NCBI RefSeq assembly: GCF_004361835.1
Contig: NZ_SNWD01000002.1
Location: forward strand, 1 to 64,000
Source of the DNA: Stakelama pacifica
Lineage (GTDB): Bacteria; Pseudomonadota; Alphaproteobacteria; Sphingomonadales; Sphingomonadaceae
DNA length: 64,000 nucleotides
Direction of reading: 5' to 3'
In this document: piece by piece, positions 840 through 16,360 of the stretch
Position numbering within the stretch: position 1 is the first letter of the stretch
How the letters are laid out: each line of letters starts with the position of its first letter
Program-made: the position numbers and the translations under genes
Notes under the pieces: model-generated
The model's input: only the letters and a program-made list of their open reading frames with translations
Told to the model about the DNA's origin: nothing
Database searches by the model: none

Positions 840-2216
840 CTACAAAATTGATCCCAGATCCGACGATATCGTCGGATAGGCGGCGATCATCTTGTTCAAA
901 TCACCGACCTTTAGTCCCGTCCGGATCGCCAGACCTAGATAATTGATCAATTCCGCATATCCCGGTCCCAGCAGATGGGCGCCCAGAATTCGATCGGTTT
1001 TGGCGTCGATAACGATGCGCGTGGCGGCGCAGGATTCGCCTACCCGAAAATTGGAAAACCAGTCGCTCGTGTCGTTGACCGCCATGCGCACATCGTATCC
1101 GGCCTCCCGGGCCTCGCTTTCGAGCATCCCGACCCGTGCGAGCTCGGGAATCGTGAACACGACGCTTGGCACACCGCTATAATCCGCCTTGGCATGATTG
1201 CCCTTGAGCATGTTGGACGCGGCGACCTTGCCTTCGGCCACCGCGACCGGCGTCAACGCGGGTCCCGCCGTACCGGCGGCGTCGCCGGCGGCATAGACAG
1301 CGGGATTGGATACGCTCTGGAGGTGCGCGTTCACGCGAATGCCGGCATCGGTGCGTTCAATATTCGCCGCAGAGAGATTCAGTTGATCGACGGCAGGAAC
1401 CCTTCCTGCACCATGAACGACGAGGTCGACGGTGAATTCGGCGCATTCGTCGCCCGACTTCGTGCGGATCAGAAAGCCGTCTGACACGCGTTCGATTGAT
1501 TGCACCGCCACGTTCAGCCGGATGTCGATACCCAGATCGCGGCTATGCGCCACCAGTCGATCGACGAGATCGGGGTCGAAGGCGCGCAGTGGTCGCGGGC
1601 CGTGATCGGCGATGCAGACGCTGCTCCCCGCCCGAACCGCGATATGAGCAAATTCGAACGAGATATAGCCGCCGCCGATGAACAGGATGCGCTTGGGAAG
1701 CTCATCGAGGTCCATGAACCCGGCATTGTCGATTGCGTGTTCGGACCCCGGCATCGACAGCGGTCGTGCTACGGCACCGGTTGCGATCAGGATATGGCGG
1801 CCCTGGATCCGTGTCCCGCCCCCGATTTCCACTGTGTTTTCATTCAGGAACCGCGCGTGACCGTGCAACGTCACAATGCCCTTTTCATCGAAACCGCTCT
1901 CGATCCGGCCGGGCATCTTGTCGGTGAAGCTGCGCTTGAACGCGACCAGTTCGCCCCAGTCGATCCGCAGGTCGTCGTCCTTGACCCCCTTGCCGCGCAT
2001 CAGCCGCGCATCGTTGATGATCTCCGCACCCCGGCGAAGCAGCTTCTTGGGATCGCAACCCCGCAGCGCGCAGGTTCCGCCATAAGGGAGTTCGTCGACG
2101 ACGGCGACCGACCAGCCGGCCGCCGCGCATTTATTCGCCGCACTCACCGCCGCCATCCCGACGCCGAGCACGACCAGGTCGAACGATTGCGTCAGGATAC
2201 CGTATTCCCCTGACAA
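840..2216 (-). CDS. Mercuric-reductase-like FAD/NAD(P) disulfide oxidoreductase
   Basis: A class I pyridine nucleotide-disulfide oxidoreductase of about 450 residues, last gene of the mer operon. Visible features are the FAD-binding LGVGMAAVSAA, the redox disulfide GTCALRGCDPKK, the second nucleotide site IGGGYISFEFA, the FAD motif YAAGDAAG, and a C-terminal dimerisation domain. It differs from Tn501/Tn21 MerA: there is no N-terminal HMA domain, the active site is GTCALRGC rather than GTCVNVGC, and the C-terminal vicinal Cys-Cys pair that hands Hg(II) to the active site is missing (it ends SSDLGSIL). The usual catalytic His of the HPT motif is Tyr (AYPT); MerA also has Tyr there. No ATG lies near the fold start. 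A CTG at 2195 overlapping the upstream TGA, or a TTG at 2216, is the likely start. Confidence 0.75.
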   Translation of the reverse strand: MSGEYGILTQSFDLVVLGVGMAAVSAANKCAAAGWSVAVVDELPYGGTCALRGCDPKKLLRRGAEIINDARLMRGKGVKDDDLRIDWGELVAFKRSFTDKMPGRIESGFDEKGIVTLHGHARFLNENTVEIGGGTRIQGRHILIATGAVARPLSMPGSEHAIDNAGFMDLDELPKRILFIGGGYISFEFAHIAVRAGSSVCIADHGPRPLRAFDPDLVDRLVAHSRDLGIDIRLNVAVQSIERVSDGFLIRTKSGDECAEFTVDLVVHGAGRVPAVDQLNLSAANIERTDAGIRVNAHLQSVSNPAVYAAGDAAGTAGPALTPVAVAEGKVAASNMLKGNHAKADYSGVPSVVFTIPELARVGMLESEAREAGYDVRMAVNDTSDWFSNFRVGESCAATRIVIDAKTDRILGAHLLGPGYAELINYLGLAIRTGLKVGDLNKMIAAYPTISSDLGSIL

Positions 2217-2440
2217 CAGGCCGTCGTTCCGGTGGCGCGCGCTTCCTGGATCGGGGGGCAGGGTACGCTGCCGAACGAACAGAAAACACAACAATCGCCC
2301 GCATTGGGGCGTAGCACCGCGCCACAACCTTTGCAGTCGTAGAAAAACTGACACGCATTGGTCGGCATCGTCTCGATTTCGGATCGCCCGCACACCGGAC
2401 ACGTCAAGGTTGATTGCAATTCCATAACCATACTCTGCAT
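2192..2440 (-). CDS. GDCCVxC-domain small cysteine-rich protein of mer operons
   Basis: An 82-residue protein with two CxxC zinc-ribbon-like pairs (CPVCG and CKGCG), then GDCCVFCSFGSVPCPP and a final TACC. The GDCCVFCS stretch identifies a small family found beside mercury and other metal resistance genes; some members carry selenocysteine. The role is unknown; eleven cysteines suggest Hg(II) or thiol chemistry in the cytosol. It lies 23 bases after merP, and its TGA overlaps the probable start of the downstream reductase, implying translational coupling. ATGs at 2440, 2431 and 2425 are all possible starts; none has a strong ribosome-binding site. Confidence 0.75.
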   Translation of the reverse strand: MQSMVMELQSTLTCPVCGRSEIETMPTNACQFFYDCKGCGAVLRPNAGDCCVFCSFGSVPCPPIQEARATGTTACCQGNTVS

Positions 2441-2463
2441 TTGCGAATCTGGAGCTGACCGGT

Positions 2464-2787
2464 TCAGTGCTCGCGAACCTTCGCCGGGTAGCCGGCATTG
2501 GTCGATGCGGCGGCGATCTTCGCCGGTGTCGCGACCTTCGCATCATAGGTGACTGTGGCAGTCTTCGCGCCGAAGTCGATCTTGACCGACCTGACGCCTG
2601 CGACACGGCCCATCGCGGTCTTCACGGTGATCGGGCATGTCGGGCACGTCATGTGGCCGATCGCAAATGTCCGGGTCCGCTCGCTTGCCGGTGCGGCGAT
2701 CGCCGCGCGGCCGGGCGCGACGCCGATGGCAGTGCCGCCGGCAACGGCGGCAAGTCCTGAAAGGACGATCGACAGGCGGTGCTTCAT
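2464..2787 (-). CDS. merP: MerP-like periplasmic mercuric-ion-binding protein
   Basis: A 107-residue exported protein. A hydrophobic signal peptide with cleavage near AIAAPA is followed by one HMA domain with the metal motif GHMTCPTCPITV. In MerP proteins the two cysteines bind Hg(II) in the periplasm and pass it to MerT. The typical later residues (VRSVKIDFGAKTATVTYD) are present, as is the terminal NAGYPAKV. An AGGAGAC ribosome-binding site overlaps the merT stop codon, so merT and merP are tightly coupled. Length and motif fit MerP fully. Confidence 0.9.
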   Translation of the reverse strand: MKHRLSIVLSGLAAVAGGTAIGVAPGRAAIAAPASERTRTFAIGHMTCPTCPITVKTAMGRVAGVRSVKIDFGAKTATVTYDAKVATPAKIAAASTNAGYPAKVREH

Positions 2788-2797
2788 TTTAGGTCTC

Positions 2798-3193
2798 CTA
2801 ATAGAACAGAGGTGCCCACCATTGCAGGGTCATGGTGAGCGCGACGATGAGCGTCGCTACCCACAGCACTGCCTTGGTCAGCAAGTCGGATCGGGGACGG
2901 GCGCAATAGCTGTCTTCGTCGCAGTGGGGCTTCGGACGAAAATAGACGTGCCAGAAGCCGCCGGCGAGAAATGCCAGCGTCATTGCGAGGAAATAGGGCT
3001 TGTAAGGTTCGAGCGCGGTAAGATTGGCGATCCATGCACCCGAAATCCCCAGCATGACGAGAAGGAGCGGGACGATGCAGCACGACGACGCCAGCACGGC
3101 GCCGACGATCCCGCCCGTGGCCAACCACCCGCCGCGCCTGCCGCCCTGACGCGTGGACGTCGATCCTTCGCTTTCCGGTCGCGTGGCCGCCAT
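2798..3193 (-). CDS. merT: MerT mercuric transport protein
   Basis: A 131-residue inner-membrane protein with three predicted helices. The first helix holds the vicinal pair in ASSCCIVPLLL, and the cytoplasmic loop holds a second pair (HCDEDSYC, spaced six residues), both diagnostic of MerT, which moves Hg(II) from MerP to the cytoplasm. The N-terminus has a charged extension of about 25 residues. It is the first gene of the minus-strand mer operon, about 30 bases below the MerR-type promoter, with a purine-rich AAGGGCGA before the ATG. Confidence 0.92.
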   Translation of the reverse strand: MAATRPESEGSTSTRQGGRRGGWLATGGIVGAVLASSCCIVPLLLVMLGISGAWIANLTALEPYKPYFLAMTLAFLAGGFWHVYFRPKPHCDEDSYCARPRSDLLTKAVLWVATLIVALTMTLQWWAPLFY

Positions 3194-3228: not shown

Positions 3229-3259
3229 TATGTAGTCCCTGTAGTAGATACAGGTTCAA
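3229..3259 (-). promoter_or_regulatory. MerR-type mer promoter/operator with 19-bp spacer
   Basis: Read on the minus strand, -35 TTGAAC (3259-3254) and -10 TACATA (3234-3229) are separated by exactly 19 bases. The spacer region contains the dyad CCTGTA-TCTAC-TACAGG. An overlong spacer with a centred dyad is the hallmark of MerR-family activated promoters. It lies in the 79-base gap between divergent merT and merR, so one site can serve both. Confidence 0.85.
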
Positions 3260-3272
3260 GAGGTGATTTTCG

Positions 3273-3692
3273 ATGGCATTCGCGGCGACCGACCGTCCGT
3301 TAAAACGCGGCGCGCTGGCCAGGCGTTTCGGATGCAACATTGAGACGATCCGATATTATGAGAATATCGCGCTGCTCCCGGCGCCCGAACGGACCCGAAG
3401 CGGACACCGGATCTATTCCCCAGCAGATCAAACGCGGTTGGGATTTATCCTGCGCGCCCGCGAACTTGGCTTCTCGGTGGAAGAGCTTCGCAGTCTGCTC
3501 AGCCTCGCGGACTCACACGAATATACCTGCGGAGAGGTGCTCACGCTCACCAGGGGCCATCTCACGGATATCCGGACGAGAATAAAGGATCTGGCACGCC
3601 TCGAACACACGCTCGCCGATATATCAGCCCAGTGCGAAGGCGGCGATGTGCCGCACTGCCCTGTGATGGATGCGTTGCTCAAAGACGGATAA
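3273..3692 (+). CDS. merR: MerR mercury-responsive transcriptional regulator
   Basis: A 139-residue MerR-family activator with an N-terminal winged HTH (LARRFGCNIETIRYYE), a dimerisation helix and a C-terminal metal loop. Cys86, Cys121 and Cys129 occupy the three mercury-ligand positions; the last two lie in the segment CEGGDVPHCPVMDAL. The 35- and 8-residue spacings are close to the 35 and 9 of Tn501 MerR. A good ribosome-binding site (AGAGGTGA) precedes the ATG. It is divergent from merT and should act on the promoter at 3229-3259. Confidence 0.9.
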   Translation: MAFAATDRPLKRGALARRFGCNIETIRYYENIALLPAPERTRSGHRIYSPADQTRLGFILRARELGFSVEELRSLLSLADSHEYTCGEVLTLTRGHLTDIRTRIKDLARLEHTLADISAQCEGGDVPHCPVMDALLKDG

Positions 3693-3997: not shown

Positions 3998-4624
3998 ATG
4001 TCAGAGCAGCTTAAAACTGAATTGCTGGTTACATTCGGCCATCGGCTGAGGCACGCGAGGCGGGAAAAGAGCCTGTCCCAGCGTGCACTTGGCGAACGCG
4101 TAGGACTTCCCCAGAGTCACATTTCGAAGATCGAACAGGGCGCGGTGGACCTTCAATTCTCGAGTCTCGCCGAACTTGCGCGTGCGCTTGATCTCGAACT
4201 CACCCTCGTCCCGCGCGCCGCGGTCGCCGCGCTTGAGGGGACGATCCAGGCAGCGACCGGACGCAACGCCGATCCAAGTGCCAGTCGGGCCAGGACGATC
4301 TTGGATGAACAAGCGCAGCTCTTGGCGGACCTCGAAAGCGCCTTTCCTGCGACCGACAAACTGTCGCGTTATGGACAGGCGATCGACGAGCTTCGGCAGC
4401 TGCATTTCGATACCCCGGCACTGAAGGCATTGCAGGAGGCTGTAGAACCCTCGCGTAAGCTCGCGCGGCTGCTGCATTCAAATGACAGCAGAGCGGACAT
4501 CATGAAGGCGCTCGATCAGGCGACCGCAAGTCTGCGCGCGTTGCGAAACCACCGCGTTCACGCGCCTGTTCTCCCGTCGCCGCGCCAGCGTCCCGCCCAC
4601 AGGCTGGAGGAGGACGATGACTGA
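3998..4624 (+). CDS. hipB: HipB-like XRE-family antitoxin/repressor
   Basis: A 208-residue protein with an N-terminal XRE-type HTH (about residues 10-65), including SQRALGERVGLPQSHISKIEQG, followed by about 140 residues of helical and then basic, disordered sequence. It overlaps the downstream hipA gene by 8 bases, the classic HipBA arrangement in which HipB neutralises HipA and represses the operon. It is much longer than E. coli HipB (88 residues); such C-terminal extensions exist in other proteobacterial HipB proteins. The role is inferred from the HTH and from the hipA neighbour. Confidence 0.8.
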   Translation: MSEQLKTELLVTFGHRLRHARREKSLSQRALGERVGLPQSHISKIEQGAVDLQFSSLAELARALDLELTLVPRAAVAALEGTIQAATGRNADPSASRARTILDEQAQLLADLESAFPATDKLSRYGQAIDELRQLHFDTPALKALQEAVEPSRKLARLLHSNDSRADIMKALDQATASLRALRNHRVHAPVLPSPRQRPAHRLEEDDD

Positions 4625-5834
4625 CGCCCGTGCCCTCGACATCTTCCTTTACGATCGCAGGATCGGAACGATCACGCTGCTCGACGGTGATCACAGTATC
4701 TTCACGTTCGACGAAGGCTATGTCGCGGACGAGGCGCGCGAAACGCTAAGCCTCTCCGTTCGAGACGAATATGGCGCGCTGATCACCGATACCCGTGCCT
4801 ATCGGACGCGCGTCGCGCCGTTCTTTTCCAACCTGCTGCCCGAAGGTACGTTGCGCGACTATCTCGCTAAGCGGGCTGGCGTGAAGGCAAGCCGCGAATT
4901 CCAGTTGCTCGCCGAGCTCGGCACCGATCTTCCCGGCGCCATTCGCGCAGTGCCCGTCCAGCAGACCACAGCAGCCGGCGGAGGCGAATTCGCTGACAAC
5001 GAAAGCCATGTCGCCGCGCCGCCCATATTTCGCTTCTCGCTGGCGGGGGTGCAGCTCAAATTCTCGGCATTGAAAAATCGCGGCAAGAATGGTGGCCTGA
5101 CGATTCCGGCGCATGGCAATGGCGGTGACTGGATCGTCAAACTACCCTCCACGCGCTTTTCCGACGTTCCCGAGAATGAGTTCGCGTCGATGAGCCTGGC
5201 CCGGCACGTCGGCATCGAGGTGCCGGATATCGATCTCGTACCCGTCGCAAAAATCGAGGGGCTGCCCGAAGGGATCGGCGAGTTCGGCGACAATGCCTAT
5301 GCCATCCGGCGCTTCGACCGGACCCCGCACGGTCCCGTCCATATCGAGGATTTCGCGCAGGTCTTTGGCGTCTACCCCGACGATAAATATGAAAATGCCA
5401 GCTACCGAAATATCCTGTCGGTGCTGGCGATCGAGACCGACGAAGCGAGCATTGAGCAGTTCGTGCGCCGTCTCACATTTAGCGTGCTCATCGGCAATGG
5501 CGACATGCATCTGAAGAATTGGTCGCTGGTATATCCCGACCGGCGAGCGCCGATCCTGTCGCCGGCTTATGACCTCTTATCGACCGTTCCCTATCTGGGC
5601 GACGAGGAAGCGGCGCTCAAGTTTCGCCGGTCCAAGGCGTGGGGATCCTACACCTATGACGAACTCGGCGCGATGGCCGACAAGGCGCGTCTCGCCACTC
5701 GCCCCGTCATCCGGGCCGCAAAAGACACGGTCGAACGGTTCGACGCGGCGTGGGCGTCGGAAAGGGACCATCTGCCACTATCGAGCAAGGTCATAGCAGC
5801 GATCGACCGCCATCGCGGACACCTCGTGATATGA
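4617..5834 (+). CDS. hipA: HipA-family serine/threonine kinase toxin
   Basis: A 405-residue HipA kinase. The N-terminal couple-HipA domain (to about 110) includes NLLPEGTLRDYL. The kinase core has the LAGVQLKFSA nucleotide loop, the WIVKLPS lysine, the catalytic loop IGNGDMHLKNWSL and the metal-binding segment LSPAYDLLST. In E. coli HipA phosphorylates glutamyl-tRNA synthetase and induces persistence. All key residues seen are intact, so an active toxin is expected. On a mobile element the pair probably stabilises inheritance. It is translationally coupled to hipB. Confidence 0.9.
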   Translation: MTDARALDIFLYDRRIGTITLLDGDHSIFTFDEGYVADEARETLSLSVRDEYGALITDTRAYRTRVAPFFSNLLPEGTLRDYLAKRAGVKASREFQLLAELGTDLPGAIRAVPVQQTTAAGGGEFADNESHVAAPPIFRFSLAGVQLKFSALKNRGKNGGLTIPAHGNGGDWIVKLPSTRFSDVPENEFASMSLARHVGIEVPDIDLVPVAKIEGLPEGIGEFGDNAYAIRRFDRTPHGPVHIEDFAQVFGVYPDDKYENASYRNILSVLAIETDEASIEQFVRRLTFSVLIGNGDMHLKNWSLVYPDRRAPILSPAYDLLSTVPYLGDEEAALKFRRSKAWGSYTYDELGAMADKARLATRPVIRAAKDTVERFDAAWASERDHLPLSSKVIAAIDRHRGHLVI

Positions 5835-5879: not shown

Positions 5880-6809
5880 ATGTCCGCGATGCGCACTAAT
5901 CTCGACCATTTGCCGCCGACACAGCAAGGCGAGCTGGAACGCGTCACGCGGCATTTGATGGCCGAGTTCGCGACCGCGATCGCGCGCGCGACCCAGCCCT
6001 GGAAAAAGAACGGGAAGATTCTCAAGATCATCCTGTTCGGCAGCTATGCGCGCAGCGACTGGGTTGACGATCCGGACAGGGGCTATCAGTCGGACTTCGA
6101 TCTGCTCGTGATCGTCAGCCATCCCGATCTGACCGACATCGCGGACTATTGGTATATCGCCGAGGATCTGATCCAGCGCGATTCCGCAATCGACCGTCCG
6201 GTCAATATCATCGTCCATACCCTCAACGAAGTGAACCAGGCACTCAGTCGCGGCGAGTATTTCTGGGTCGATATCGCGCGCGACGGCATCGTGCTCTACG
6301 AGCTGCCCGGCAGCACGCTCGCGACACCCAAACCACTTACGCCTGCAGATGCGTACGAAATGGCGGCTTCCTACTTCAACGAGTGGCTACCCAGCATTGA
6401 TCGGGCGCTATCGACTGCAAATGACCAACTGGCAAAAGGGAGCGACGACCTGGGGTGGCGCAAGGATGCCGCATTCTCGCTTCACCAAGCGACCGAGCGC
6501 GCTTTCATCTGCTTCCTGCTCGTCCGCACGCTCTATTTCCCCCGGTCGCATAACATCAAGTTCCTGCGGTCGCTGGCCGAAGATAGCGAACCCCGGCTCG
6601 TCGCTGCCTGGCCCCGTGCGACCCGTCTCGAGCGGCGCCGGTTCGAACTCCTCAAGCGCGCTTATGTCGAAGCGCGTTATTCGGCGAATTTCACCATCGG
6701 CACCGAGGACCTCGAAATGTTGACGCGCTCGGTCCGCGATTTGCGCAATTTAGTCGCTGGCGTCTCACAGCAACGAATAGACGAACTTCGAACCGCCGCG
6801 GGCCTCTAA
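5880..6809 (+). CDS. Nucleotidyltransferase-HEPN domain fusion protein
   Basis: A 309-residue protein. The N-terminal half is a pol-beta/MNT-type nucleotidyltransferase with LFGSYARSDW and the metal-binding DFDLLVI, and a third acidic residue near DRPVNII. The C-terminal half (about 150-300) is a HEPN domain with helices such as DAAFSLHQATERAFICFL and KRAYVEARYSANF. Separate MNT and HEPN proteins form toxin-antitoxin pairs in which the MNT protein AMPylates the HEPN RNase; fused forms are widespread but little studied. It lies 45 bases after hipA in the same direction and may share its transcript. The substrate is unknown. Confidence 0.8.
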   Translation: MSAMRTNLDHLPPTQQGELERVTRHLMAEFATAIARATQPWKKNGKILKIILFGSYARSDWVDDPDRGYQSDFDLLVIVSHPDLTDIADYWYIAEDLIQRDSAIDRPVNIIVHTLNEVNQALSRGEYFWVDIARDGIVLYELPGSTLATPKPLTPADAYEMAASYFNEWLPSIDRALSTANDQLAKGSDDLGWRKDAAFSLHQATERAFICFLLVRTLYFPRSHNIKFLRSLAEDSEPRLVAAWPRATRLERRRFELLKRAYVEARYSANFTIGTEDLEMLTRSVRDLRNLVAGVSQQRIDELRTAAGL

Positions 6810-6954: not shown

Positions 6955-8970
6955 GTGACGCCCACCAAACTTCTTCTCGGTCAGATTCTCGTCGTTTTCG
7001 GGATCGTCCTCCTCGGTCTCTGGGCTTCGACCCAGTGGGTCGCAGCGGCGCTCGCCTATCAACCGGAATTGGGCGGCGCGTGGTTTCGCTTCGCTGGCAC
7101 GCCGATCTACCGTCCCTGGGCGCTATTTCCGTGGTGGTATCATTTCAATGCCTATGCCCCGCGGATTTTCGATCGCGCCGGCATGTTCGCGGGTGCCAGC
7201 GGCTTTGCCGGCTGCGGTGCCGCCATTTTCGGGTCGTTGTGGCGCGCACGCCAGTCTCGCAATGTCACCACTTATGGCTCGGCACGTTGGGCGACAACGC
7301 GCGAAATCAAACGGGCGGGCCTGCTACGCGATCAAGGCGTCATGCTTGGCCGTCTCGACGACCGCTATCTGCGTCATGACGGTCCCGAACATGTCATGGC
7401 CTTCGCCCCGACCCGTTCGGGCAAGGGCGTCGGCCTTGTCGTGCCCACCTTGCTGTCCTGGACCGGTTCGGCGGTCATTCACGATATCAAGGGCGAAAAC
7501 TGGCAGCTGACGGCGGGTTGGCGGTCGCGCTTTTCGCATTGCCTGTTGTTCAACCCGACCGATCGCCGCTCGGCGCATTATAATCCGCTGCTCGAAGTGC
7601 GTCGCGGCGCCCAAGAAGTGCGCGACGTCCAGAACATCGCCGACATCCTCGTCGACCCCGAAGGCGCGCTCGAACGCCGCAGTCATTGGGAGAAGACCAG
7701 CCACGCGCTGCTCGTCGGCGCCATCCTCCACATTCTCTATGCCGAGGAAGAAAAGACGCTCGCCCGCGTCGCAACCTTTCTATCCGACCCTAAACGTAGC
7801 TTCGTCGCGACGCTTCGACAGATGATGGCAACCAATCATCTCGGCACCGAAAAGACCCCCTGCCCGCATCCGGTCGTCGCCTCGGCCGCGCGCGAACTTC
7901 TCAACAAGAGCGAAAATGAACGTTCGGGCGTGCTCTCGACCGCCATGTCGTTTCTCGGCCTGTACCGCGATCCGACCGTGGCCGCGGTGACCTCGCGTTG
8001 CGATTGGCGGATCGCCGATCTCGTCGAGGGCAAGCAGCCGCTTTCGCTCTACCTCGTCATCCCGCCCTCGGACATCAGCCGCACCAAGCCGCTGGTGCGC
8101 CTGGTGCTCAATCAGATCGGCAGGCGGCTAACCGAACGCCTCGATCAACCGACCGTCGCCGAACATCGACACAAGCTACTGATGATGTTGGATGAGTTTC
8201 CAGCACTCGGTCGGCTCGACTTCTTCGAGACCAGTCTCGCCTTCATGGCCGGTTACGGCATCCGCGCGTTCCTGATCGCGCAGAGCCTCAATCAGATTGA
8301 AAAAGCCTATGGCGAGCACAATTCGATCCTCGACAATTGTCATGTCCGGGTGGCGTTTGCGACCAATGACGAGCGCACGGCAAAACGCATTTCGGATGCG
8401 CTCGGCACGGCGACCGAGCAGCGCGCGATGCGTAATTATGCTGGTCACCGCCTCGCGCCGTGGCTCGCGCATGTCATGGTCAGCCGCCAGGAAACCGCGC
8501 GCCAGCTTCTGACCCCCGGCGAAATCATGCAGCTCCCGTCCGACGAGCAGCTTGTGCTCGTCGCCGGTCTCGCGCCGATTCGGGCGACCAAGCTGCGCTA
8601 TTTCGCCGACGGCAATTTTGCCGCGCGCGTCACCGCACCACCCGTCCTGGCCAAGGGCCGCTATGGTGACCGTCCGGCTGACCGCCCGAATGTTTGGGCA
8701 GACGCAGTCCGCCTCGACGATCGCGATCGACCGGATGCCGAAGACGAGGCCTGCACTCGAGATGGCGGACGCGAGCAGCAGCGTCAGCCTGGGCTGCCCG
8801 AACACGCGCCTCGCGCGACAGAACCGCAAGAGCCGACCCTTGTGGCCGCTGAGGACGACGATCCCGCGCAGGACAAGCGCGCCATGGATCAGGCGCGCAG
8901 CCTGAGCGCGGTCGCGCGGGGCTACGGGCTCAATCAGTCAAGCGACCACGATCTGGTGCCGGGGATCTGA
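6955..8970 (+). CDS. traG: TraG/VirD4-type conjugative coupling protein
   Basis: A 671-residue T4SS coupling ATPase. Two N-terminal transmembrane segments (about 5-28 and 70-95) are followed by Walker A at about 151-158 (APTRSGKG) and Walker B at about 410-415 (MMLDEF). The conserved AFLIAQSLNQI and TKLRYF segments are present; the C-terminal tail is charged. It links the relaxosome to the Trb channel and energises DNA export. The start is GTG at 6955. It heads a compact operon of thirteen genes to 18890 with gaps or overlaps of only a few bases except before trbL. Confidence 0.92.
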   Translation: MTPTKLLLGQILVVFGIVLLGLWASTQWVAAALAYQPELGGAWFRFAGTPIYRPWALFPWWYHFNAYAPRIFDRAGMFAGASGFAGCGAAIFGSLWRARQSRNVTTYGSARWATTREIKRAGLLRDQGVMLGRLDDRYLRHDGPEHVMAFAPTRSGKGVGLVVPTLLSWTGSAVIHDIKGENWQLTAGWRSRFSHCLLFNPTDRRSAHYNPLLEVRRGAQEVRDVQNIADILVDPEGALERRSHWEKTSHALLVGAILHILYAEEEKTLARVATFLSDPKRSFVATLRQMMATNHLGTEKTPCPHPVVASAARELLNKSENERSGVLSTAMSFLGLYRDPTVAAVTSRCDWRIADLVEGKQPLSLYLVIPPSDISRTKPLVRLVLNQIGRRLTERLDQPTVAEHRHKLLMMLDEFPALGRLDFFETSLAFMAGYGIRAFLIAQSLNQIEKAYGEHNSILDNCHVRVAFATNDERTAKRISDALGTATEQRAMRNYAGHRLAPWLAHVMVSRQETARQLLTPGEIMQLPSDEQLVLVAGLAPIRATKLRYFADGNFAARVTAPPVLAKGRYGDRPADRPNVWADAVRLDDRDRPDAEDEACTRDGGREQQRQPGLPEHAPRATEPQEPTLVAAEDDDPAQDKRAMDQARSLSAVARGYGLNQSSDHDLVPGI

Positions 8971-8973
8971 GCG

Positions 8974-9378
8974 ATGAAAATACGCCAGAACCTCTATATC
9001 GATCGAGAACTCGCCGAGGCGCTCCAGGCGCTCGCCGCGGGCGAGGCCGGCAACAAGTCACGGCTCGTCAATGACGCGATTCGTGATTGGCTTGAACGGC
9101 GCGGCGCAAAGGAGATTGACGATCTTCTGAAGCGCCGGCTCGACCGACTCGGTCGCGAGATCGGCCATACCCGCCGCGACATCGAAGTGCTGCTCGAAAG
9201 CCTGTCGCTGTTCATCCGCTACCAGCTGATGGTGACCGCGCCGCTTCCCGAAGGGGACGCCGCCGCGATCGCGGTCGGCCAGGCACGGTTCGACAAGTTC
9301 GTGTCCCAGGTGGCGCGCCAAATCGCCTCGGAGCATCGTACGCTCGGTGAAACATCCGATACCGGAAAAATCTCGTGA
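8974..9378 (+). CDS. CopG-like ribbon-helix-helix protein of the transfer operon
   Basis: A 134-residue protein with a ribbon-helix-helix start (KIRQNLYIDRELAEALQALA then SRLVNDAIRDWLERR) and a long charged, probably coiled-coil region (DDLLKRRLDRLGREIGHTRRD). Genes of this type sit between traG and trbB in many alphaproteobacterial Trb-type elements. It may be an auxiliary relaxosome or regulatory protein. It starts 3 bases after traG and overlaps trbB by 4 bases. Confidence 0.75.
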   Translation: MKIRQNLYIDRELAEALQALAAGEAGNKSRLVNDAIRDWLERRGAKEIDDLLKRRLDRLGREIGHTRRDIEVLLESLSLFIRYQLMVTAPLPEGDAAAIAVGQARFDKFVSQVARQIASEHRTLGETSDTGKIS

Positions 9379-10376
9379 GCGGCGACACCTTCGATGCCGG
9401 TAGCGATGGCCGCCGCCGAACCATGCTGCGCACCGCGATGGGGCCGACAATCACCGCCGCCCTCACCGATCCGCTTGTCCTCGAAGTCATGGTCAACCCC
9501 GATGGAGAGCTGCGCCTCGATCGGCTTGGCGAAGGCCGCATCGGTACCGGCGTGCGCTACGATCCCGCTCAAATCGAACGAATCGTCCGATTGGTCGCCA
9601 GCCATGCTCGTACCGAGGTGAATGCTACGGCACCGATCGTATCGGCGGAACTTCCGCCGCTCGGTGACGGCGCCGGCGAGCGGTTCGAAGGCGTGTTGCC
9701 GCCGGTCAGTCTCGCGCCCTGCTTTTCGATCCGTAAGCCCGCGACCCGGCTCTATACGCTGATGGACTATGTGACCGATGGGATCATGTCGGCCGAAGTC
9801 GCGCGGTTGCTGAGCCTGGCTGTCGTCGATCGGCGTAATATCCTTGTCGCGGGCGGCACCAGTTCGGGCAAGACCACGCTCGCCAATGCGCTGCTTGCCG
9901 AAATGGCCCATCTCGACGAGCGCGTGATCCTGATCGAGGATACGCGCGAGCTCCAATCGCCCGCGGCCGATACCGTCGCGCTCAGGACTCGCGCTGGTGC
10001 GGTGTCGATGGCCGATCTTGTCCGCTCGACACTGAGGCTGCGGCCCGACCGCATCATCGTCGGCGAAGTGCGGGGCCCCGAAGCGCTCGATATGCTCAAG
10101 GCTTGGAATACCGGCCATCCCGGCGGCATCGCGACGGTTCATGCGAACGGCGCCGGTGCAGCGCTTTTCCGGCTCGAGCAGCTCGTCCAGGAAGCCGTGG
10201 TCACCGTGCCCCAGCGACTGATCGCTGATGCGATCGATCTGATCGTGTTCATTTCCGGCCGGGGAACCGCGCGCCGGGTCGAGACGCTCGCGCGCGTCGC
10301 CGGTCTCGATCCGGACGGCGGCTACGCCGTGCTCGACATCACCCCCCTCACACCCCCCGACAGTCAAGGAGACTGA
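9375..10376 (+). CDS. trbB: TrbB conjugation ATPase (VirB11 family)
   Basis: A 333-residue hexameric traffic ATPase with Walker A at 160-167 (GGTSSGKT), the Asp box LIEDTRELQ, Walker B region DRIIVGEVRG and the His box HPGGIATVHAN. It is a peripheral inner-membrane protein powering pilus assembly and transfer. The GTG start at 9375 overlaps the upstream stop, coupling the two genes. Confidence 0.95.
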   Translation: MSGDTFDAGSDGRRRTMLRTAMGPTITAALTDPLVLEVMVNPDGELRLDRLGEGRIGTGVRYDPAQIERIVRLVASHARTEVNATAPIVSAELPPLGDGAGERFEGVLPPVSLAPCFSIRKPATRLYTLMDYVTDGIMSAEVARLLSLAVVDRRNILVAGGTSSGKTTLANALLAEMAHLDERVILIEDTRELQSPAADTVALRTRAGAVSMADLVRSTLRLRPDRIIVGEVRGPEALDMLKAWNTGHPGGIATVHANGAGAALFRLEQLVQEAVVTVPQRLIADAIDLIVFISGRGTARRVETLARVAGLDPDGGYAVLDITPLTPPDSQGD

Positions 10377-10378
10377 CC

Positions 10379-10708
10379 ATGTACCCAATGCGCCTTCGTC
10401 GCCGCGCGGCTTGCTTTATCGCCGCCGCGTTTCTCTCAGCCACGACCTCGACCACCGCCTGGGCGAGCGGTTCGGGCATGCCTTGGGAACAGCCGCTTCA
10501 GCAGGTGCTGGAATCGGTGCAGGGGCCGGTCGCGAAGATTGTCGCGGTGATCATCATCATCGTCACCGGATTGACGCTTGCGTTCGGCGAGACGGCGGGT
10601 GGATTTCGCCGTCTCATCCAAATCATCTTCGGCCTGTCGATCGCCTTTGCCGCGTCGAGCTTCTTTCTTTCCTTCTTCAGCTTTGGCGGCGGGGCGCTGG
10701 TCGCATGA
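10379..10708 (+). CDS. trbC: TrbC pilin (VirB2-like)
   Basis: A 109-residue prepilin with a long signal sequence (RRRAACFIAAAFLSA, cleavage near AWASG) and two hydrophobic segments (VAVIIIIVTGLTLAFG and IAFAASSFFLSFF) joined by a short polar loop, the normal TrbC/VirB2 layout. In the Trb system it is processed and often cyclised to form the mating pilus. It starts 2 bases after trbB and overlaps trbD by 4. Confidence 0.9.
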   Translation: MYPMRLRRRAACFIAAAFLSATTSTTAWASGSGMPWEQPLQQVLESVQGPVAKIVAVIIIIVTGLTLAFGETAGGFRRLIQIIFGLSIAFAASSFFLSFFSFGGGALVA

Positions 10709-10980
10709 CCTCGATTTCGTCCCACCATATCGAGGGTTTCGAAGTGCCCATCCATGGCAGTCTCGGCTCGCCGATCCTGCTCGGCGGTGCGCCGCGCGGG
10801 CTTGCGATCGTCAACGGAACGCTGGCCGCCGCTGTCGGTCTTGGCCTCCAGCAATGGATCGCCGGCCTCGCACTATGGGCCGTCGGGCACAGCCTTGCGG
10901 TGTTCGCTGCGCGCCACGATCCCGACTTCGCGCCCGTGCTGATCCGCCATCTGCGCCAGAAGGGCTATCTGGCATGTTAG
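10705..10980 (+). CDS. trbD: TrbD (VirB3-like) inner-membrane protein
   Basis: A 91-residue protein with the characteristic start EGFEVPIHGSLGSPILLGGAPR and two adjacent membrane segments (residues about 35-70), as in VirB3/TrbD. It works with the TrbE ATPase in assembling the channel. The ATG at 10705 overlaps the trbC stop (ATGA), and its end overlaps trbE by 7 bases. Confidence 0.9.
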   Translation: MTSISSHHIEGFEVPIHGSLGSPILLGGAPRGLAIVNGTLAAAVGLGLQQWIAGLALWAVGHSLAVFAARHDPDFAPVLIRHLRQKGYLAC

Positions 10981-13421
10981 CGCTCCATGAATATCGCCAG
11001 CGCGCTGACCGGCTGTCCGACCACTTGCCATGGGCAGCGTTGGTCGCGCCGGGCATCGTCCTCAACAAGGACGGCAGCTTTCAGCGAAGCTTTGCGTTTC
11101 GCGGTCCCGATCTCGAAAGCGCGACCGAGGCTGAACTTGTGTCCGCATCCGCGCGCGCCAATAACGTGCTCAAGCGGTTCGGGACGGGCTGGGCGCTGTT
11201 CTTCGAAGCAGTCCGCCGTGAAGCACTAGATTATCCGGTCAGCCGCTTCCCCGATCCTGTCTCCTGGCTCGTCGATGCCGAACGTCGCGCCGCCTTCGAA
11301 GCCGAGGGTCGGCACTTCGAGAGCCGGTATTTTGGAACCCTGGTCTGGATGCCGCCCGCCGACAGCAGCGATGCCGCCGGACGCGCGCTGGTGGAGCGCG
11401 ATAGTCGGCAGGAGGGCCGCGACTGGCACGCCAGCCTTGCAAGCTTTGCAGCGAAAACCGATCGTGCGCTCGATCTGCTCACGGGCTTCATGCCCGATGT
11501 TCATCCGCTCGATGACACCGAGACCCTGACCTATCTCCATGCGACCATATCGACGCGCCCGCACGTCGTGCGCGCGCCAGACACGCCGGTTTACCTCGAT
11601 GCGATCCTCGCCGATACTCCGCTGACCGGGGGTCTCGAGCCGATGCTCGGGACCGCGCATCTGCGCACCCTGACGATCCTCGGCTTCCCAAATACCAGCC
11701 GGCCCGGCCTTCTCGACGCGCTCAATGCCACCGATTTCTCCTATCGTTGGATGACGCGCTTCATCGCGCTCGACAAGGCCGATGCGACCAAGGTCCTCAC
11801 CCGCCTTCGTCGCCAGTGGTTCAACAAGCGCAAGTCGATCACCGCGCTCCTGCGTGAAGTGCTCTACAGTCAGCCGGCGCAATTGCTCGACAGCGACGCC
11901 GACAACAAGGTGGCTGACGCCGACCTGGCACTCCAATCGCTTGGCGGCGACCATGTCGCGTTCGGGTATCTGACCACCACGATCACGGTTACCGACACGG
12001 ACCGCGTCCGGGTCGAAGACAAGCTCCGCGCCGTCGAGCGGATCGTCAACGGGCTGGGCTTTACCAGCATGCGCGAGGGCGTGAACGCGGTCGAGGCATG
12101 GCTTTCATCACTGCCTGGGCAAAGTTACGCCAATGTACGTCAGCCGCTGATCCACACGCTCAATCTCGCTCACCTGATGCCGCTCTCGTCCGTTTGGGCC
12201 GGCCCGGTGAAGAACGATCATCTTGACGGTGCGCCGCTACTGTACGCCCAAACCAGCGGCACGACGCCGTTTCGGCTTTCGACCCATGTCGGCGATGTCG
12301 GCCATATGCTCGTCGTCGGTCCGACCGGCGCGGGCAAATCCGTACTGCTCGCAATGATCGCGCTGCAATTCCGTCGCTACGCCAATGCCCGGATCATTGT
12401 CTTCGACATGGGGTTTTCGGCGCGCGCCGCGGTGCTGGCGATGGGAGGGAGTCACCATTCCCTTGGTCCTCGGCCGGAGCATGGCGATGGCGGAGGGCTC
12501 AGCTTCCAGCCGCTGCGCGATATCGATGACGTCGATGAACGCAGCTGGGCGGCGGAGTGGGTCGCGGCCCTGGTGACGCACGAACAGGTCAATCTTACCC
12601 CCGATATCAAGGAGCTGATCTGGTCGGCGCTCGGCAACCTTGCGAGCGCGCCACGCGAAGAACGCACCCTTACCGGGCTTAGTCTGTTGCTCCAGTCGAA
12701 CGCGCTCAGGACCGCGCTTGCGCCCTATACGCTCGATGGGGCTTATGGCGGGCTGCTCGACGCCGACGACGAGCGGCTCGCCTTTGCCGATGTGCAATGC
12801 TTCGAGACCGAGGCGCTTATGCTGCGCAAAGGCGTCGTCGCGCCCGTCCTCACCTATCTGTTCCACCGCATCGAAAAGCGCTTCGATGGTCGCCCGACCC
12901 TGTTGCTGCTCGACGAAGCCTGGAGTCTGCTCGACGATCCCCTGTTCGCCGCGCGAATTCGTGAATGGCTCAAGACGCTCAGAAAGAAAAACGTCTCGGT
13001 TCTGTTCGCGACGCAGAGTCTCGCCGACATTACCCACAGCGCGATCGCACCGGCCATTATCGAAAGCTGTCCGCAGCGCATCTTCCTGCCGAATGATCGT
13101 GCGATCGAGCCACAAAGCCGCGCTACCTATGAACGTTTTGGCCTCAACGAGCGCCAGGTCGAACTGATCAGCCGATCGACGCCCAAGCGGCATTATTATC
13201 TGCAATCAGCGCGCGGCAACCGCCTGTTCGAACTCGGTCTCGGCCCCATCGCGCTCGCGCTGTGTGGCGCGGCCGATCCCGCGACGCAGGCGCAGATCGA
13301 CGCGCTCATCGCCAATGGCGGGCAGGACGGCTTGGCCGCCCGCTTCCTCACCGCCTCCGGTCTGTCCTGGGCGGCAGATCTGCTCGCGGAATTTCCCGAC
13401 ACCTCATCAGCACAGGAGTAA
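10974..13421 (+). CDS. trbE: TrbE conjugation ATPase (VirB4 family)
   Basis: An 815-residue VirB4/CagE-type ATPase. The N-terminal half is the VirB4 membrane-associated domain. Walker A is at about 449-456 (GPTGAGKS) and Walker B at about 645 (LLLLDEAWSLL), followed by the VLFATQSLADI motif. The largest motor of the T4SS. An ATG at 10974 inside the end of trbD is preferred; it gives the normal MLALHEYR start of the family. Confidence 0.95.
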   Translation: MLALHEYRQRADRLSDHLPWAALVAPGIVLNKDGSFQRSFAFRGPDLESATEAELVSASARANNVLKRFGTGWALFFEAVRREALDYPVSRFPDPVSWLVDAERRAAFEAEGRHFESRYFGTLVWMPPADSSDAAGRALVERDSRQEGRDWHASLASFAAKTDRALDLLTGFMPDVHPLDDTETLTYLHATISTRPHVVRAPDTPVYLDAILADTPLTGGLEPMLGTAHLRTLTILGFPNTSRPGLLDALNATDFSYRWMTRFIALDKADATKVLTRLRRQWFNKRKSITALLREVLYSQPAQLLDSDADNKVADADLALQSLGGDHVAFGYLTTTITVTDTDRVRVEDKLRAVERIVNGLGFTSMREGVNAVEAWLSSLPGQSYANVRQPLIHTLNLAHLMPLSSVWAGPVKNDHLDGAPLLYAQTSGTTPFRLSTHVGDVGHMLVVGPTGAGKSVLLAMIALQFRRYANARIIVFDMGFSARAAVLAMGGSHHSLGPRPEHGDGGGLSFQPLRDIDDVDERSWAAEWVAALVTHEQVNLTPDIKELIWSALGNLASAPREERTLTGLSLLLQSNALRTALAPYTLDGAYGGLLDADDERLAFADVQCFETEALMLRKGVVAPVLTYLFHRIEKRFDGRPTLLLLDEAWSLLDDPLFAARIREWLKTLRKKNVSVLFATQSLADITHSAIAPAIIESCPQRIFLPNDRAIEPQSRATYERFGLNERQVELISRSTPKRHYYLQSARGNRLFELGLGPIALALCGAADPATQAQIDALIANGGQDGLAARFLTASGLSWAADLLAEFPDTSSAQE

Positions 13422-13425
13422 GACA

Positions 13426-14172
13426 ATGTCCTTCGACGCCCGCAAATATTTCGTTTCGTCTGCCCTCACGCTCGGCACTTTGGTGTCGTTCGGCGTCGCG
13501 CTCACTCTCCCCGCGACGCCCGCCGCGGCGCAATTTACCGTGTTCGATCCGAGCAACTACAGTCAAAATTTGCTTACGGCGGCACGCACCCTCCAGCAAA
13601 TCAACAACCAGATCCAGTCGCTGCAAAATGAAGCGTCGATGCTCCTCAATCAGGCGAAGAATCTTCGCCGCGTTGATTTTCCCGAGGTAGAGACGCTCAA
13701 CCGGACGCTCCAGCAAATCGACCAATTGATGGGCGAGGCAAAGGGCGTTGGATTTCGGGTTGATGGCCTCGACCGGCAATTTCGTCGGCTCTTTCCAAGA
13801 GACTTTGATCAGGCGCTGTCGAGCGATGAGCGTGTGATCGCGGCGCGCACCCGGCTCGGCACCGCGATGGACGCCTATCACGAGACGATGACGGTTCAGG
13901 CGCAGGTCGTCGAAAACGTCGCCTCGGACGCCGCGACCCTGCGCACGCTTATCGCGCGTAGCCAAGGCGCCGAAGGCGCGCTTCAGGTTCAACAGGCGAC
14001 CAATCAGCTGCTTGCGCTCACCGCCAAGCAACAGCTTCAGCTCCAGAATATGATGGCGGCACAATATCGCGCTCAAGCGGTCGAGGCGGCGCGACGCGCG
14101 CAAGCCGAAAGCGACGCCCGCGCGACCACGAAACGCTTTCTCGGCTCCGGCTCGGCCTACACGCCCCAATAG
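13426..14172 (+). CDS. trbJ: TrbJ (VirB5-like) pilus-tip protein
   Basis: A 248-residue exported protein with a signal peptide cleaved near AAAQFTVFDP. The mature part is nearly all helical and coiled-coil, starting DPSNYSQNLLTAARTLQQINNQIQSLQ in pattern and rich in Gln, as in TrbJ/VirB5. It is a minor pilus component and, in RP4, contributes to entry exclusion with TrbK. It starts 4 bases after trbE with AGGAG overlapping the trbE stop. Confidence 0.9.
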   Translation: MSFDARKYFVSSALTLGTLVSFGVALTLPATPAAAQFTVFDPSNYSQNLLTAARTLQQINNQIQSLQNEASMLLNQAKNLRRVDFPEVETLNRTLQQIDQLMGEAKGVGFRVDGLDRQFRRLFPRDFDQALSSDERVIAARTRLGTAMDAYHETMTVQAQVVENVASDAATLRTLIARSQGAEGALQVQQATNQLLALTAKQQLQLQNMMAAQYRAQAVEAARRAQAESDARATTKRFLGSGSAYTPQ

Positions 14173-14187
14173 GCTTGAGTCCGAGAG

Positions 14188-14256
14188 GTGACGGCGGATT
14201 CGCCCTCCGTCCGTCACCGTCGCGGGGCGCGTACGCTCCCCCGCGCGCCCCGCGAC
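14188..14256. terminator. Two hairpins in the trbJ-trbL spacer
   Basis: Within the 118-base trbJ-trbL gap, GTGACGG (14188-14194) pairs with CCGTCAC (14211-14217). GTCGCGGGGCGCG (14219-14231) pairs perfectly with CGCGCCCCGCGAC (14244-14256), a 13-bp GC stem with a 12-base loop. No U-tract follows, so this may be an attenuator, an RNA-stability element or a processing site rather than a full terminator. trbK would normally be in this position, and no trbK ORF is present. Confidence 0.55.
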
Positions 14257-14290
14257 CTTCTCTTCTCCACGGCCACCAGGATCATCATCC

Positions 14291-15592
14291 GTGAACGACC
14301 TGAACGTCCTCGACCGCTTCATGAATGCCTTTATCCGCTACATCGACAGCGGATTCGGCCTGCTGGGTCCGGACATCGGCTTTCTGACCACGACGCTGAT
14401 CGCGATCGACATCACGCTTGCAGGATTGTTCTGGGCGATGGGCGGCGAGCAGGACGTCATCGGCCGGTTCCTGCGCAAGATCCTCTATATCGGCGCTTTC
14501 GCCTTCATCCTGAACCGTTTCGCGACGCTGGCCGACATCATTTTCAGGTCGTTCGCGCAAGCGGGGCTGACGGCCGGTGGCGGGACGCTCTCCGCTGACG
14601 ACCTGCTCAAACCGGGGCGCCTCGCGGCAACCGGCTTTTCAGCGGCGTGGCCGTTGCTCGACCAGGCCGCAAAGTTGATGGGCTTCACCAGCTTTTTCGA
14701 CAATTTTCTGACGATCGCGGTGCTGCTGTTCGCCTGGATCATCGTCATCATCGCCTTCTTCATCCTCTCGGTGCAGATGTTCGTCACCATCATCGAGTTC
14801 AAACTGACGAGTCTCGCCGGTTTCATCCTCGTGCCATTCGCACTTTGGGGGCGGACCAGTTTCCTCGCCGAGCGTGTGCTGGGAAATGTCGTCTCGTCGG
14901 GGATCAAGGTGATGGTGCTCGCCGTGATCGTCGGCATCGGCTCGAACTTTTTCAGCGAGTTCACCGGCGCGCTTCAGGGCCAGGAACCCGATATCGGTCA
15001 AGCGATGAGCCTCGTGCTCGCCAGCTTGTCGCTCTTCGGTCTCGGCATCTTCGGCCCCGGCATCGCTTCGGGCCTCGTCGCGGGAGCGCCGCAACTTGGC
15101 GCTGGCGCGGCCCTCGGTTCGACAATTGGCGCCGCCGGCGTGGTAGCGCTTGGCGGTGGTGCCGCCATCGGCGCGGCACGGCTTGCAGGTGGTGCGGCGG
15201 TCGGCGCGGTTCGGGCCGGGACGGCAATGGGTTCGGCCGCTTCGACGGCTTATACGCTCGGTCAGGAAGGTTCAGGTTCATCGAGCATCGCTTCGGGCAT
15301 GGGTGGCGTCGCCCGTGCCGCCGGGGGCGCGGCGCGGCAGCGTGCCGGCCAAGCCTTCGGACTCCGGCAAGCCTCCGAGTCGGGTCGCGCCGCTGCCTGG
15401 TCAGCCCTCAACGCTGGTGGGTCAGGCCAGCCAACGACAAGTGGCGCGACTGGCGGCGCGCCCGGCTGGGCACGCGACCTTCGCCGCCAGCAGAACGCCC
15501 GTCATCACCGCCATGTCGCGCTCCAGACGCTGCGTGAAGGCGACCGCGGCGGCAGCGGCGCCACCCCGGACATCAAGGAAAAGGAGGATTGA
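14291..15592 (+). CDS. trbL: TrbL (VirB6-like) polytopic channel protein
   Basis: A 433-residue inner-membrane protein. About six hydrophobic segments lie between residues 20 and 250, including the conserved FFILSVQMFVTIIEFKLT region. The tail from about 260 is rich in Gly and Ala and then basic, as is normal for TrbL. It forms part of the inner-membrane platform of the T4SS. The start is GTG at 14291; the spacing from trbJ is unusually long for this operon. Confidence 0.92.
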   Translation: MNDLNVLDRFMNAFIRYIDSGFGLLGPDIGFLTTTLIAIDITLAGLFWAMGGEQDVIGRFLRKILYIGAFAFILNRFATLADIIFRSFAQAGLTAGGGTLSADDLLKPGRLAATGFSAAWPLLDQAAKLMGFTSFFDNFLTIAVLLFAWIIVIIAFFILSVQMFVTIIEFKLTSLAGFILVPFALWGRTSFLAERVLGNVVSSGIKVMVLAVIVGIGSNFFSEFTGALQGQEPDIGQAMSLVLASLSLFGLGIFGPGIASGLVAGAPQLGAGAALGSTIGAAGVVALGGGAAIGAARLAGGAAVGAVRAGTAMGSAASTAYTLGQEGSGSSSIASGMGGVARAAGGAARQRAGQAFGLRQASESGRAAAWSALNAGGSGQPTTSGATGGAPGWARDLRRQQNARHHRHVALQTLREGDRGGSGATPDIKEKED

Positions 15593-15595
15593 ACG

Positions 15596-16360
15596 ATGCG
15601 CTTTAAACGCAGTGTCCAGCGCTACGGACATACACCCGAGCCCGCAACGCCCTATCAACGTGCTGGCCAAATTTGGGATGAGCGGATCGGCTCGGCCCGT
15701 CTTCAGGCAAGAAACTGGCGGATCATGGCGTTCGGCGGCTTGCTGCTGACGGCCGGCATGTCGAGCGCGCTCGTCTGGCAGTCGCTTCAAAGCCACATCG
15801 TTCCCTATGTCGTGGAAGTCGATCATCTCGGCGAAGCGCGATCGGTCAGTCCAGCCAACCGCGACTATCGTCCGGACGATCCCGAAATCGCCTGGCACCT
15901 TTCGCGGTTCATCGAACAGATACGCTCGGTCTCGCTCGATCCCGTGCTCATGCGTCAGAACTGGCTTTCGGCCTATGCGTTCGTCACCAAACGCGGCGCG
16001 CGCTATCTCGATTCCTATGCGCGTGCCAGCGATCCGTTCGCGTCGATTGGCGAGCGGACGATCTCGGTTCAGGTGACCAGCGTGGTGCGCGCATCGGACC
16101 AGTCATTCCAGATCAAATGGACACAGACCGCGTTTGAGCGGGGTACGCAAGTCGGCGTCTCGCATTGGACCGGCATCGTGAGCGTGGTCCACCACGCTCC
16201 CGCTTCTGCCGAGATACTGCGTCGCAACCCGCTCGGCATTTACATCGATAGCATCGACTGGAGTCGCGAGCTCGATCCCGCTGTCACCGCGCCTGCCGCA
16301 GCCACCGTGAATGGCGGCGACACTGTCCTTCCCTCTTCTTCTCCGGAGATCCAGCCATGA
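15596..16360 (+). CDS. trbF: TrbF (VirB8-like) core protein
   Basis: A 254-residue bitopic protein. A cytoplasmic head with the TrbF motif NPYQRAGQ-like TPYQRAGQIWDERIGSAR is followed by one membrane helix (about residues 43-62) and a periplasmic VirB8 domain. The C-terminal conserved NPLGIYIDSIDWSREL is present. It nucleates assembly of the transenvelope complex. It lies 3 bases after trbL and overlaps trbG by 4. Confidence 0.93.
   Translation: MRFKRSVQRYGHTPEPATPYQRAGQIWDERIGSARLQARNWRIMAFGGLLLTAGMSSALVWQSLQSHIVPYVVEVDHLGEARSVSPANRDYRPDDPEIAWHLSRFIEQIRSVSLDPVLMRQNWLSAYAFVTKRGARYLDSYARASDPFASIGERTISVQVTSVVRASDQSFQIKWTQTAFERGTQVGVSHWTGIVSVVHHAPASAEILRRNPLGIYIDSIDWSRELDPAVTAPAAATVNGGDTVLPSSSPEIQP

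Follow-up and report, generated by a model that had tools for sequence, protein, structure and literature searches.

A Stakelama pacifica mer operon that pairs a reductase lacking the C-terminal Cys-Cys with a GDCCVxC protein

Introduction

A mer operon lies in the first 3.7 kb of a 64,000-nucleotide stretch of Stakelama pacifica DNA (hereafter the window), which forms the start of contig C2 in a 3.98-Mb genome of 31 contigs. Its reductase lacks the C-terminal pair of cysteines that is the mark of canonical mercuric reductase (MerA; TIGR02053, NF010311; Tn501/RC607 type), and the gene next to it encodes a small cysteine-rich protein of the GDCCVxC family. This raises the question of how such a reductase would receive its metal, and whether the small protein has a part in it. 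An earlier note on this DNA proposed that the small protein might supply the missing thiols, and asked for a tree of the reductase and for the co-occurrence of the two genes. We show herein that the reductase resembles a published Hg(II) reductase that likewise lacks the Cys-Cys pair, that the two genes recur together across the order Sphingomonadales, and that beside this type of reductase a GDCCVxC gene and a canonical merA were never found in the same locus. These observations argue for a partnership, whose proposed mechanism is discussed below together with three rival explanations.

Results

The reductase and its closest known relatives

The two genes in question are the following.

840..2195, - strand: GbsMerA-type reductase, 451 amino acids (aa) from CTG; C42/C47 redox pair, D48, Y177, T315, Y440
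2192..2440, - strand: GDCCVxC gene, 82 aa from the ATG at 2440; 11 Cys; C-terminal Cys-Cys tail

The reductase is a class-I pyridine nucleotide-disulfide reductase with the redox motif GGTCALRGCDPKK. A Pfam search found no HMA/NmerA domain in it, and the protein ends in ..AAYPTISSDLGSIL, with no Cys-Cys and no other Cys nearby, so that the earlier description of an enzyme with a GTCALRGC site, without NmerA and without a C-terminal pair, was borne out. The vicinal Cys pair by which canonical MerA is recognized is absent, and the score against TIGR02053 (275.8 bits) is below the curated cut-off of 454.45. The top NCBIfam score was that of glutathione-disulfide reductase (NF004776, 310 bits, below its cut-off of 480), and the protein fell below every glutathione reductase cut-off.

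By far the closest solved structures are 8k40 and 8k41 (450 bits, with the same motif; the next structure reached 233 bits). They are those of GbsMerA, a mercuric reductase of Gelidibacter salicanalis PAMC21136. According to the part of the GbsMerA paper covered here (PMC10587081), this enzyme is encoded in a mer operon, has neither NmerA nor a C-terminal Cys-Cys, and guards Escherichia coli against HgCl2. Its oxidation of nicotinamide adenine dinucleotide phosphate (NADPH) amounted to 474.7 umol/min/mg with Hg(II), 236.5 with Ag+ and 97.3 with glutathione disulfide (GSSG), and activity was lost in the Y437F mutant. GbsMerA has the motif GGTCALRGCDPKK in common with the reductase of the window, which also keeps the equivalents of its D47, T312 and Y437 near the redox pair, and both operons provide MerT and MerP functions. 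The GbsMerA operon differs in that its regulator is ArsR, that MerT and MerP are merged as one MerT/P gene, and that the downstream gene is annotated as hypothetical; a thiol partner is not discussed in the portion of the text covered. The order ArsR-merTP-reductase-GDCCVxC in Hymenobacter (L156) follows the layout of the GbsMerA operon, and by analogy the hypothetical gene downstream of GbsMerA may be a GDCCVxC gene.

In a maximum-likelihood tree of 82 proteins (five rows with no recognized active-site motif, rows shorter than 430 aa and identical rows were left out), a branch with 100/99 support separated 69 reductase rows and GbsMerA from eight canonical MerAs, the glutathione reductase 6b4o and three further reductases of the window's genome. 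The CALRGCDP rows form a smaller 100/99 branch; long branches were flagged by the tree program. The reductase is therefore apart from canonical MerA and from glutathione reductase, and at the same time groups with a proven enzyme lacking the Cys-Cys pair, an outcome that the earlier note had itself counted against its proposal. In sequence terms, the reductase is a member of the already published GbsMerA type of Hg(II) reductase; the idea of an orphan reductase was dismissed once the GbsMerA match was found.

Among 65 CALRGCDPK reductases (those of the window and of G. salicanalis included), C42 and C47 are the only conserved cysteines, and both are present in 65/65, as are D48 and T315. Y440 is present in 64 (Phe in one) and Y177 in 43 (Phe in 22). 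Y440 stands where glutathione reductase has His467, and Tyr in place of this catalytic His is the MerA substitution, as stated in the part of PMC4500099 that was covered. For that reason a plain glutathione reductase was dismissed; the likeness to it is one of overall sequence, and it gives the top NCBIfam score. With canonical MerA the reductase shares the disulfide oxidoreductase (DSOR) fold, the CxxxxC pair, the Tyr and the location in a mer operon; it differs in its missing Cys-Cys tail, its low TIGR02053 score and its separate branch of the tree.

Pairing of the two genes in Sphingomonadales

The survey set comprised 296 Sphingomonadales genomes, and "near" denotes a distance within 3 kb; the distances used in this work (3 kb, 3.5 kb and 4.5 kb) were each fixed once, with one value apiece. 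A GDCCVxC protein above cut-off was found in 57 of the genomes (61 places), a GbsMerA-type reductase in 25 and canonical MerA in 27 (29 places). A MerT-family match at E <= 0.001 was found in 71 genomes, in 49 of them above cut-off, several of the matches being below the Pfam cut-off or weak in the custom profile. Six matches from the order share 35-38% identity and were left out of the GbsMerA-type count; one of them (L144) has GGTCALRGCVPKK.

A GDCCVxC gene lies near 24 of the 25 GbsMerA-type reductases versus none of the 29 canonical MerAs, which bears out the co-occurrence that the earlier note had asked about. MerT-family matches are near 25/25 of the former and 26/29 of the latter. The sole reductase with no GDCCVxC gene near it (G217) is clustered with a canonical merA. 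Fisher's test for the contrast gives 2e-14, a value that ignores relatedness and is hence too strong. The 25 genomes are spread over 12 genera, and so the contrast is not that of one clone. Gene order varies in the flanks, which were covered for 20 of the other 24 genomes of the order with the reductase (all except G207, G124, G077 and G283). The GDCCVxC gene may directly precede the reductase, follow it (L156, L164) or be separated from it by merB (L190), and the reductase may be on the opposite side of merR (L175, L181, L183-L188, L198).

Mutual exclusion of GDCCVxC and canonical MerA

A search starting from the reductase gave a wider sample of 50 loci, 20 from plasmids (of 117 plasmid records at E <= 1e-90) and 30 from genomes; L149, L150 and L159, found through GDCCVxC, and L179, with an active site other than GTCALRGC, were excluded. 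Twenty-five of these loci have only GDCCVxC, 15 only a canonical Cys-Cys MerA, 10 neither, and none both. Every one of the 39 loci with a MerT-type gene has exactly one of the two (GDCCVxC in 24, canonical MerA in 15), and all 10 loci with neither are devoid of a MerT match. Among 80 loci found through GDCCVxC, 36 have the reductase. Canonical MerA is absent from all 80 flanks examined, some of which are short (e.g., L056, L062, L092 and L095). On the tree of the 50 loci, the GDCCVxC state changes six times (at least four on well-supported branches) and the MerA state nine times (at least seven). For example, two sister reductases have swapped partners, with merA and no GDCCVxC in L189, and GDCCVxC and no merA in L190. 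Canonical MerAs of 472-483 aa (L146, L152, L158 and L162), too short for NmerA, are likewise without GDCCVxC; the exclusion rule thus tracks the terminal Cys pair rather than NmerA. The merA of L166 is split into two frames.

The 15 loci in which the reductase accompanies a canonical merA bring in another explanation, namely that the enzyme is a thiol reductase of mer operons, such as the glutathione reductase sometimes called MerK, which would maintain small thiols in the reduced state so that they can deliver Hg(II), and would not itself reduce Hg(II). The top NCBIfam score would fit such a role, and so would the GSSG turnover of GbsMerA, roughly one-fifth of the rate with Hg(II) in the data covered. 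On an Exiguobacterium plasmid (L155:2770-6341), moreover, the same reductase type directly follows egtB and egtD of ergothioneine synthesis, a context hinting at a small-thiol link. We nevertheless consider a thiol reductase rather improbable. The catalytic His of glutathione reductase is replaced by Tyr in 64 of the 65 aligned enzymes and by Phe in one, and GbsMerA, as far as the covered text goes, prefers Hg(II) and loses activity as Y437F. In the window's genome, furthermore, no canonical MerA was found at E <= 1e-120, which leaves little else to reduce the Hg(II) imported by MerT. Five further, more distant reductase-like places are present in this genome.

Some other arrangements were observed in these samples. 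Loci L041, L042, L046, L054, L061, L064-L067, L159 and others have merR beside merT-(merP)-GDCCVxC, with no reductase in the flank examined. In three actinobacterial plasmids (L147:4690-5004, L148:4705-5019 and L160:3641-3934), all three among the 10 loci with neither GDCCVxC nor canonical MerA, a small protein of 97-104 aa occupies the usual place of GDCCVxC between merR and the same reductase type. Its annotation is hypothetical, thioredoxin family or alkylmercury lyase; that of L147 is near the NCBI DF (seleno)protein family (61.9 bits, below the cut-off of 70). Plasmid pMR68 of mercury-resistant Pseudomonas K-62 (L151:6004-8789) has two adjacent GTCALRGC reductases, away from its described mer clusters.

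The GDCCVxC protein

The small protein of the window is a full-length member of NF041374, the GDCCVxC domain-containing (seleno)protein family (101.4 bits, cut-off 40), and it adjoins the reductase and has eleven cysteines, just as first described. The family name was not met in the literature searched. In 111 aligned rows, near copies among them, the nine core cysteines are invariant (111/111). The NCBIfam model, of 58 positions, ends before the C-terminal Cys-Cys tail of the window's protein, and this pair is present in 105/111 and 93/111 rows in its two columns. An AlphaFold model, made with 62 sequences, shows two short helices after a small beta-rich body, with a mean predicted local distance difference test (pLDDT) score of 73. 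The score drops to a mean of 51 for residues 71-80 and 40 for residues 81-82, which predicts disorder for the tail that carries C75/C76. With this model, Foldseek returned nothing at E <= 0.001 (best E 0.41), and a fold match that would name the function was dismissed on that account. Among the weak matches are several zinc ribbons, LysW and ribosomal proteins for instance; together with the CPxC..CxxC spacing they suggest a zinc-ribbon-like body.

Operon layout, gene starts and regulation

Upstream of the two genes are the following features.

2464..2787, - strand: merP, HMA-fold Hg(II)-binding protein, 107 aa, with a signal-like N-terminal stretch
2798..3193, - strand: merT, inner-membrane Hg(II) transporter, 131 aa
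3229..3259, - strand: putative MerR-type promoter/operator of the merT operon, TTGAAC (3259-3254), 19 bp, TACATA (3234-3229)
3273..3692, + strand: merR, divergent MerR-family metal-responsive regulator, 139 aa; Cys 21, 86, 121, 129

The order is merR (+), then merT-merP-GDCCVxC-reductase (-). The locus is a mer operon, having merT and merP together with a divergent MerR-type regulator and its operator, with MerT, MerP and MerR all scoring below their NCBIfam equivalog cut-offs. MerT reached 97.0 bits in Pfam, above the gathering score of 32.9, and 103.9 bits in the equivalog model, below the cut-off of 150; its Cys pairs C38/C39 and C91/C97 are present. MerP reached 51.9 bits with Pfam HMA and 71.3 bits with TIGR02052 (cut-off 92.55), and has the Cys pair C48/C51. 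The earlier characterization of merT and merP as normal is fair in the sense that their Cys pairs are present.

Inside the promoter, at 3238-3254, is the dyad CCTGTA-N5-TACAGG, which occurs only once in the window and in 0/100 shuffles. A 19-bp spacer with such a dyad is the typical layout of MerR promoters. A sigma-70 scan upstream of merT on the - strand, whose range does not include 19-bp spacers, gave one promoter-like match (2 found, 1.0 expected), distinct from the operator.

The reductase probably starts at the CTG at 2195-2193, judging from its relatives: ATG is at or beside the aligned place in the 12 relatives compared, and the copy in L037 has CTG like the window. This CTG overlaps the TGA of the GDCCVxC gene (2194-2192) by two bases, as CTGA, and the overlap of stop and start pointed out in the earlier note is thus real only if the start is non-ATG. 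An alternative start is the TTG at 2216. The start of the GDCCVxC gene may be the third ATG, at 2425, going by its relatives.

The regulator matches Pfam MerR-DNA-bind, and its top NCBIfam score is that of MerR (TIGR02051, 114.6 bits, cut-off 150.85), closely followed by CadR-PbrR (104.5 bits, likewise below cut-off). This closeness to CadR/PbrR, and the Ag+ activity of GbsMerA, half of that with Hg(II) in the data covered, would agree with an operon devoted to a thiophilic metal other than Hg(II), with Ag(I), Cd(II) and Pb(II) as examples. MerT, MerP and the reductase all indicate Hg(II), however, and relatives of the reductase sit with merB in L168, L189 and L190, so that we regard a different metal as very improbable.

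Genomic surroundings

A near-identical operon is present in Stakelama marina (L037, Sphingomonadales) and in genome G056 of the same genus (99.86-99.87% identity over 6272 bp). A helix-turn-helix protein and a HipA-like protein are encoded at 3998-5834, beside the mer operon, and genes for conjugation (coupling protein, T2SSE-type ATPase, TrbE-like protein, TrbL, VirB8 and TrbI) follow at 6955-18455; the mer operon is therefore probably cargo of a conjugative element. The open reading frame at 5880-6809 (+) contains, at 6367-6508, a block of about 140 bases that is strongly diverged, with sharp edges and the frame kept. It falls within the HEPN portion of a nucleotidyltransferase-HEPN protein, in DNA that is otherwise 99.4-99.9% identical to L037 and L199. 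This would be a swapped block, perhaps in a toxin-antitoxin-like or defence gene.

Discussion

A proposed relay of Hg(II)

The reading that we prefer, and to which we would give about an even chance, is that MerP and MerT import Hg(II), that the GbsMerA-type reductase reduces it, and that Hg(II) is relayed in the cytosol by the GDCCVxC protein, in place of the Cys-Cys arm. MerP would capture Hg(II) and MerT would carry it inward. The GDCCVxC protein would combine a body resembling a zinc ribbon, with additional thiols, and a flexible Cys-Cys arm at its C terminus. It would receive Hg(II) either from MerT or from small thiols and pass it on to the reductase, and its arm would do in trans the job that canonical MerA performs in cis with its own C-terminal Cys-Cys arm. 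The reductase would then turn Hg(II) into Hg(0), using NADPH through flavin adenine dinucleotide (FAD) and C42/C47, while D48 and the Y440 of the other monomer would handle the metal. From the gene content, family placement, conserved residues and mutually exclusive pairing observed, we infer that GDCCVxC would bind Hg, that it would transfer Hg to the reductase, and that the enzyme of the window would be active. The C-terminal pair of canonical MerA is needed for thiol-bound Hg(II) and not for small halide ligands, a difference for which no support was found in the literature searched; it would reconcile the activity of GbsMerA on HgCl2 with the need for a partner in a glutathione-rich cell.

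In a more general form, the pair may be a split mercuric reductase, in which the GDCCVxC arm acts in trans for a catalytic core that has no terminal thiols, the two solutions being mutually exclusive, about as common as each other in Sphingomonadales, and the split one overlooked by Cys-Cys-based surveys. This wider claim is tentative, and we hold it to be somewhat less probable than the relay in the window itself.

Several observations weigh against the relay. GbsMerA acts on HgCl2 in vitro with no helper protein, as far as the covered part of PMC10587081 goes. In the survey, 37 of the 61 GDCCVxC places have no GbsMerA-type reductase within 3 kb, so serving this reductase cannot be the only purpose of the small protein, and in 26 of the 57 genomes with GDCCVxC no reductase of either type passed the thresholds used. 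Similarly, 33 of the 46 GDCCVxC loci without the reductase carry MerR- and MerT-type matches, and 0/46 have a canonical MerA in the flank examined. The reductase, in turn, stands beside a canonical merA in 15/50 loci, where its function may differ, and L151, L155, L171, L172 and L174 have none of the mer genes searched for in the flank examined. A tree-aware test of independent pairs leans in the direction expected of the exclusion, in that the pairs never change the same way, and has too few of them for significance (median p 0.25). No fusion of GDCCVxC and reductase occurs among the loci examined, and gene fusion as proof of contact was accordingly dismissed. Lastly, with some "without reductase" labels possibly wrong since the flank of L008-L036 is about 1.5 kb, two or more tail cysteines are present in 28/28 distinct GDCCVxC proteins beside the reductase versus 51/60 distinct ones with no reductase in the flank (p 0.052), and a strict Cys-Cys tail in 27/28 versus 49/60 (p 0.094). 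A Cys-Cys tail peculiar to reductase-linked proteins was dismissed, such tails being common throughout the family.

These points lend weight to a serious rival, in which the reductase acts alone on Hg(II) and GDCCVxC is an independent metallothionein-like buffer or scavenger of Hg(II) behind MerT, with no specific contact with the reductase. The helper-free activity of GbsMerA and the 33 loci with MerR- and MerT-type matches would be expected of such a buffer, and of the 61 GDCCVxC genes in the order, 42 have a MerT-family match within 3 kb and only 24 have the reductase within that distance. A buffer would leave unexplained, however, the mutual avoidance of GDCCVxC and canonical MerA, in 50 loci as well as around 29 canonical MerAs, and the existence of merR-GDCCVxC-reductase units with no MerT-type match at all (L163, L093 and L096). 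On balance, we think the buffer less likely than the relay, and the strongest of the three alternatives. What stands of the suggestion in the earlier note is that the two genes belong together, as the Sphingomonadales contrast and the 39 MerT-linked loci indicate; the handover of Hg(II) from the small protein stays a proposal.

Implications for mer operons and the GDCCVxC family

The recurring, mutually exclusive partnership of GDCCVxC and the reductase looks new; it was not met in the literature searched, which was mostly without subscription journals. MerA has been screened by its C-terminal vicinal Cys pair, and 906 genomes with MerB and without MerA were reported in the part of PMC8261052 covered here. 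In G263, the reductase and GDCCVxC flank a MerB-type gene (L190), and a search for canonical MerA at E <= 1e-120 was negative; the reductase-GDCCVxC pair could thus account for some of the genomes with MerB and without MerA, as far as the covered part of that report describes them. Of the 296 Sphingomonadales genomes, 51 hold either reductase, and 24 of these 51 hold solely the type without Cys-Cys, which suggests that mer surveys may undercount Hg(II) reduction. The GDCCVxC (seleno)protein family, for its part, gains a testable role.

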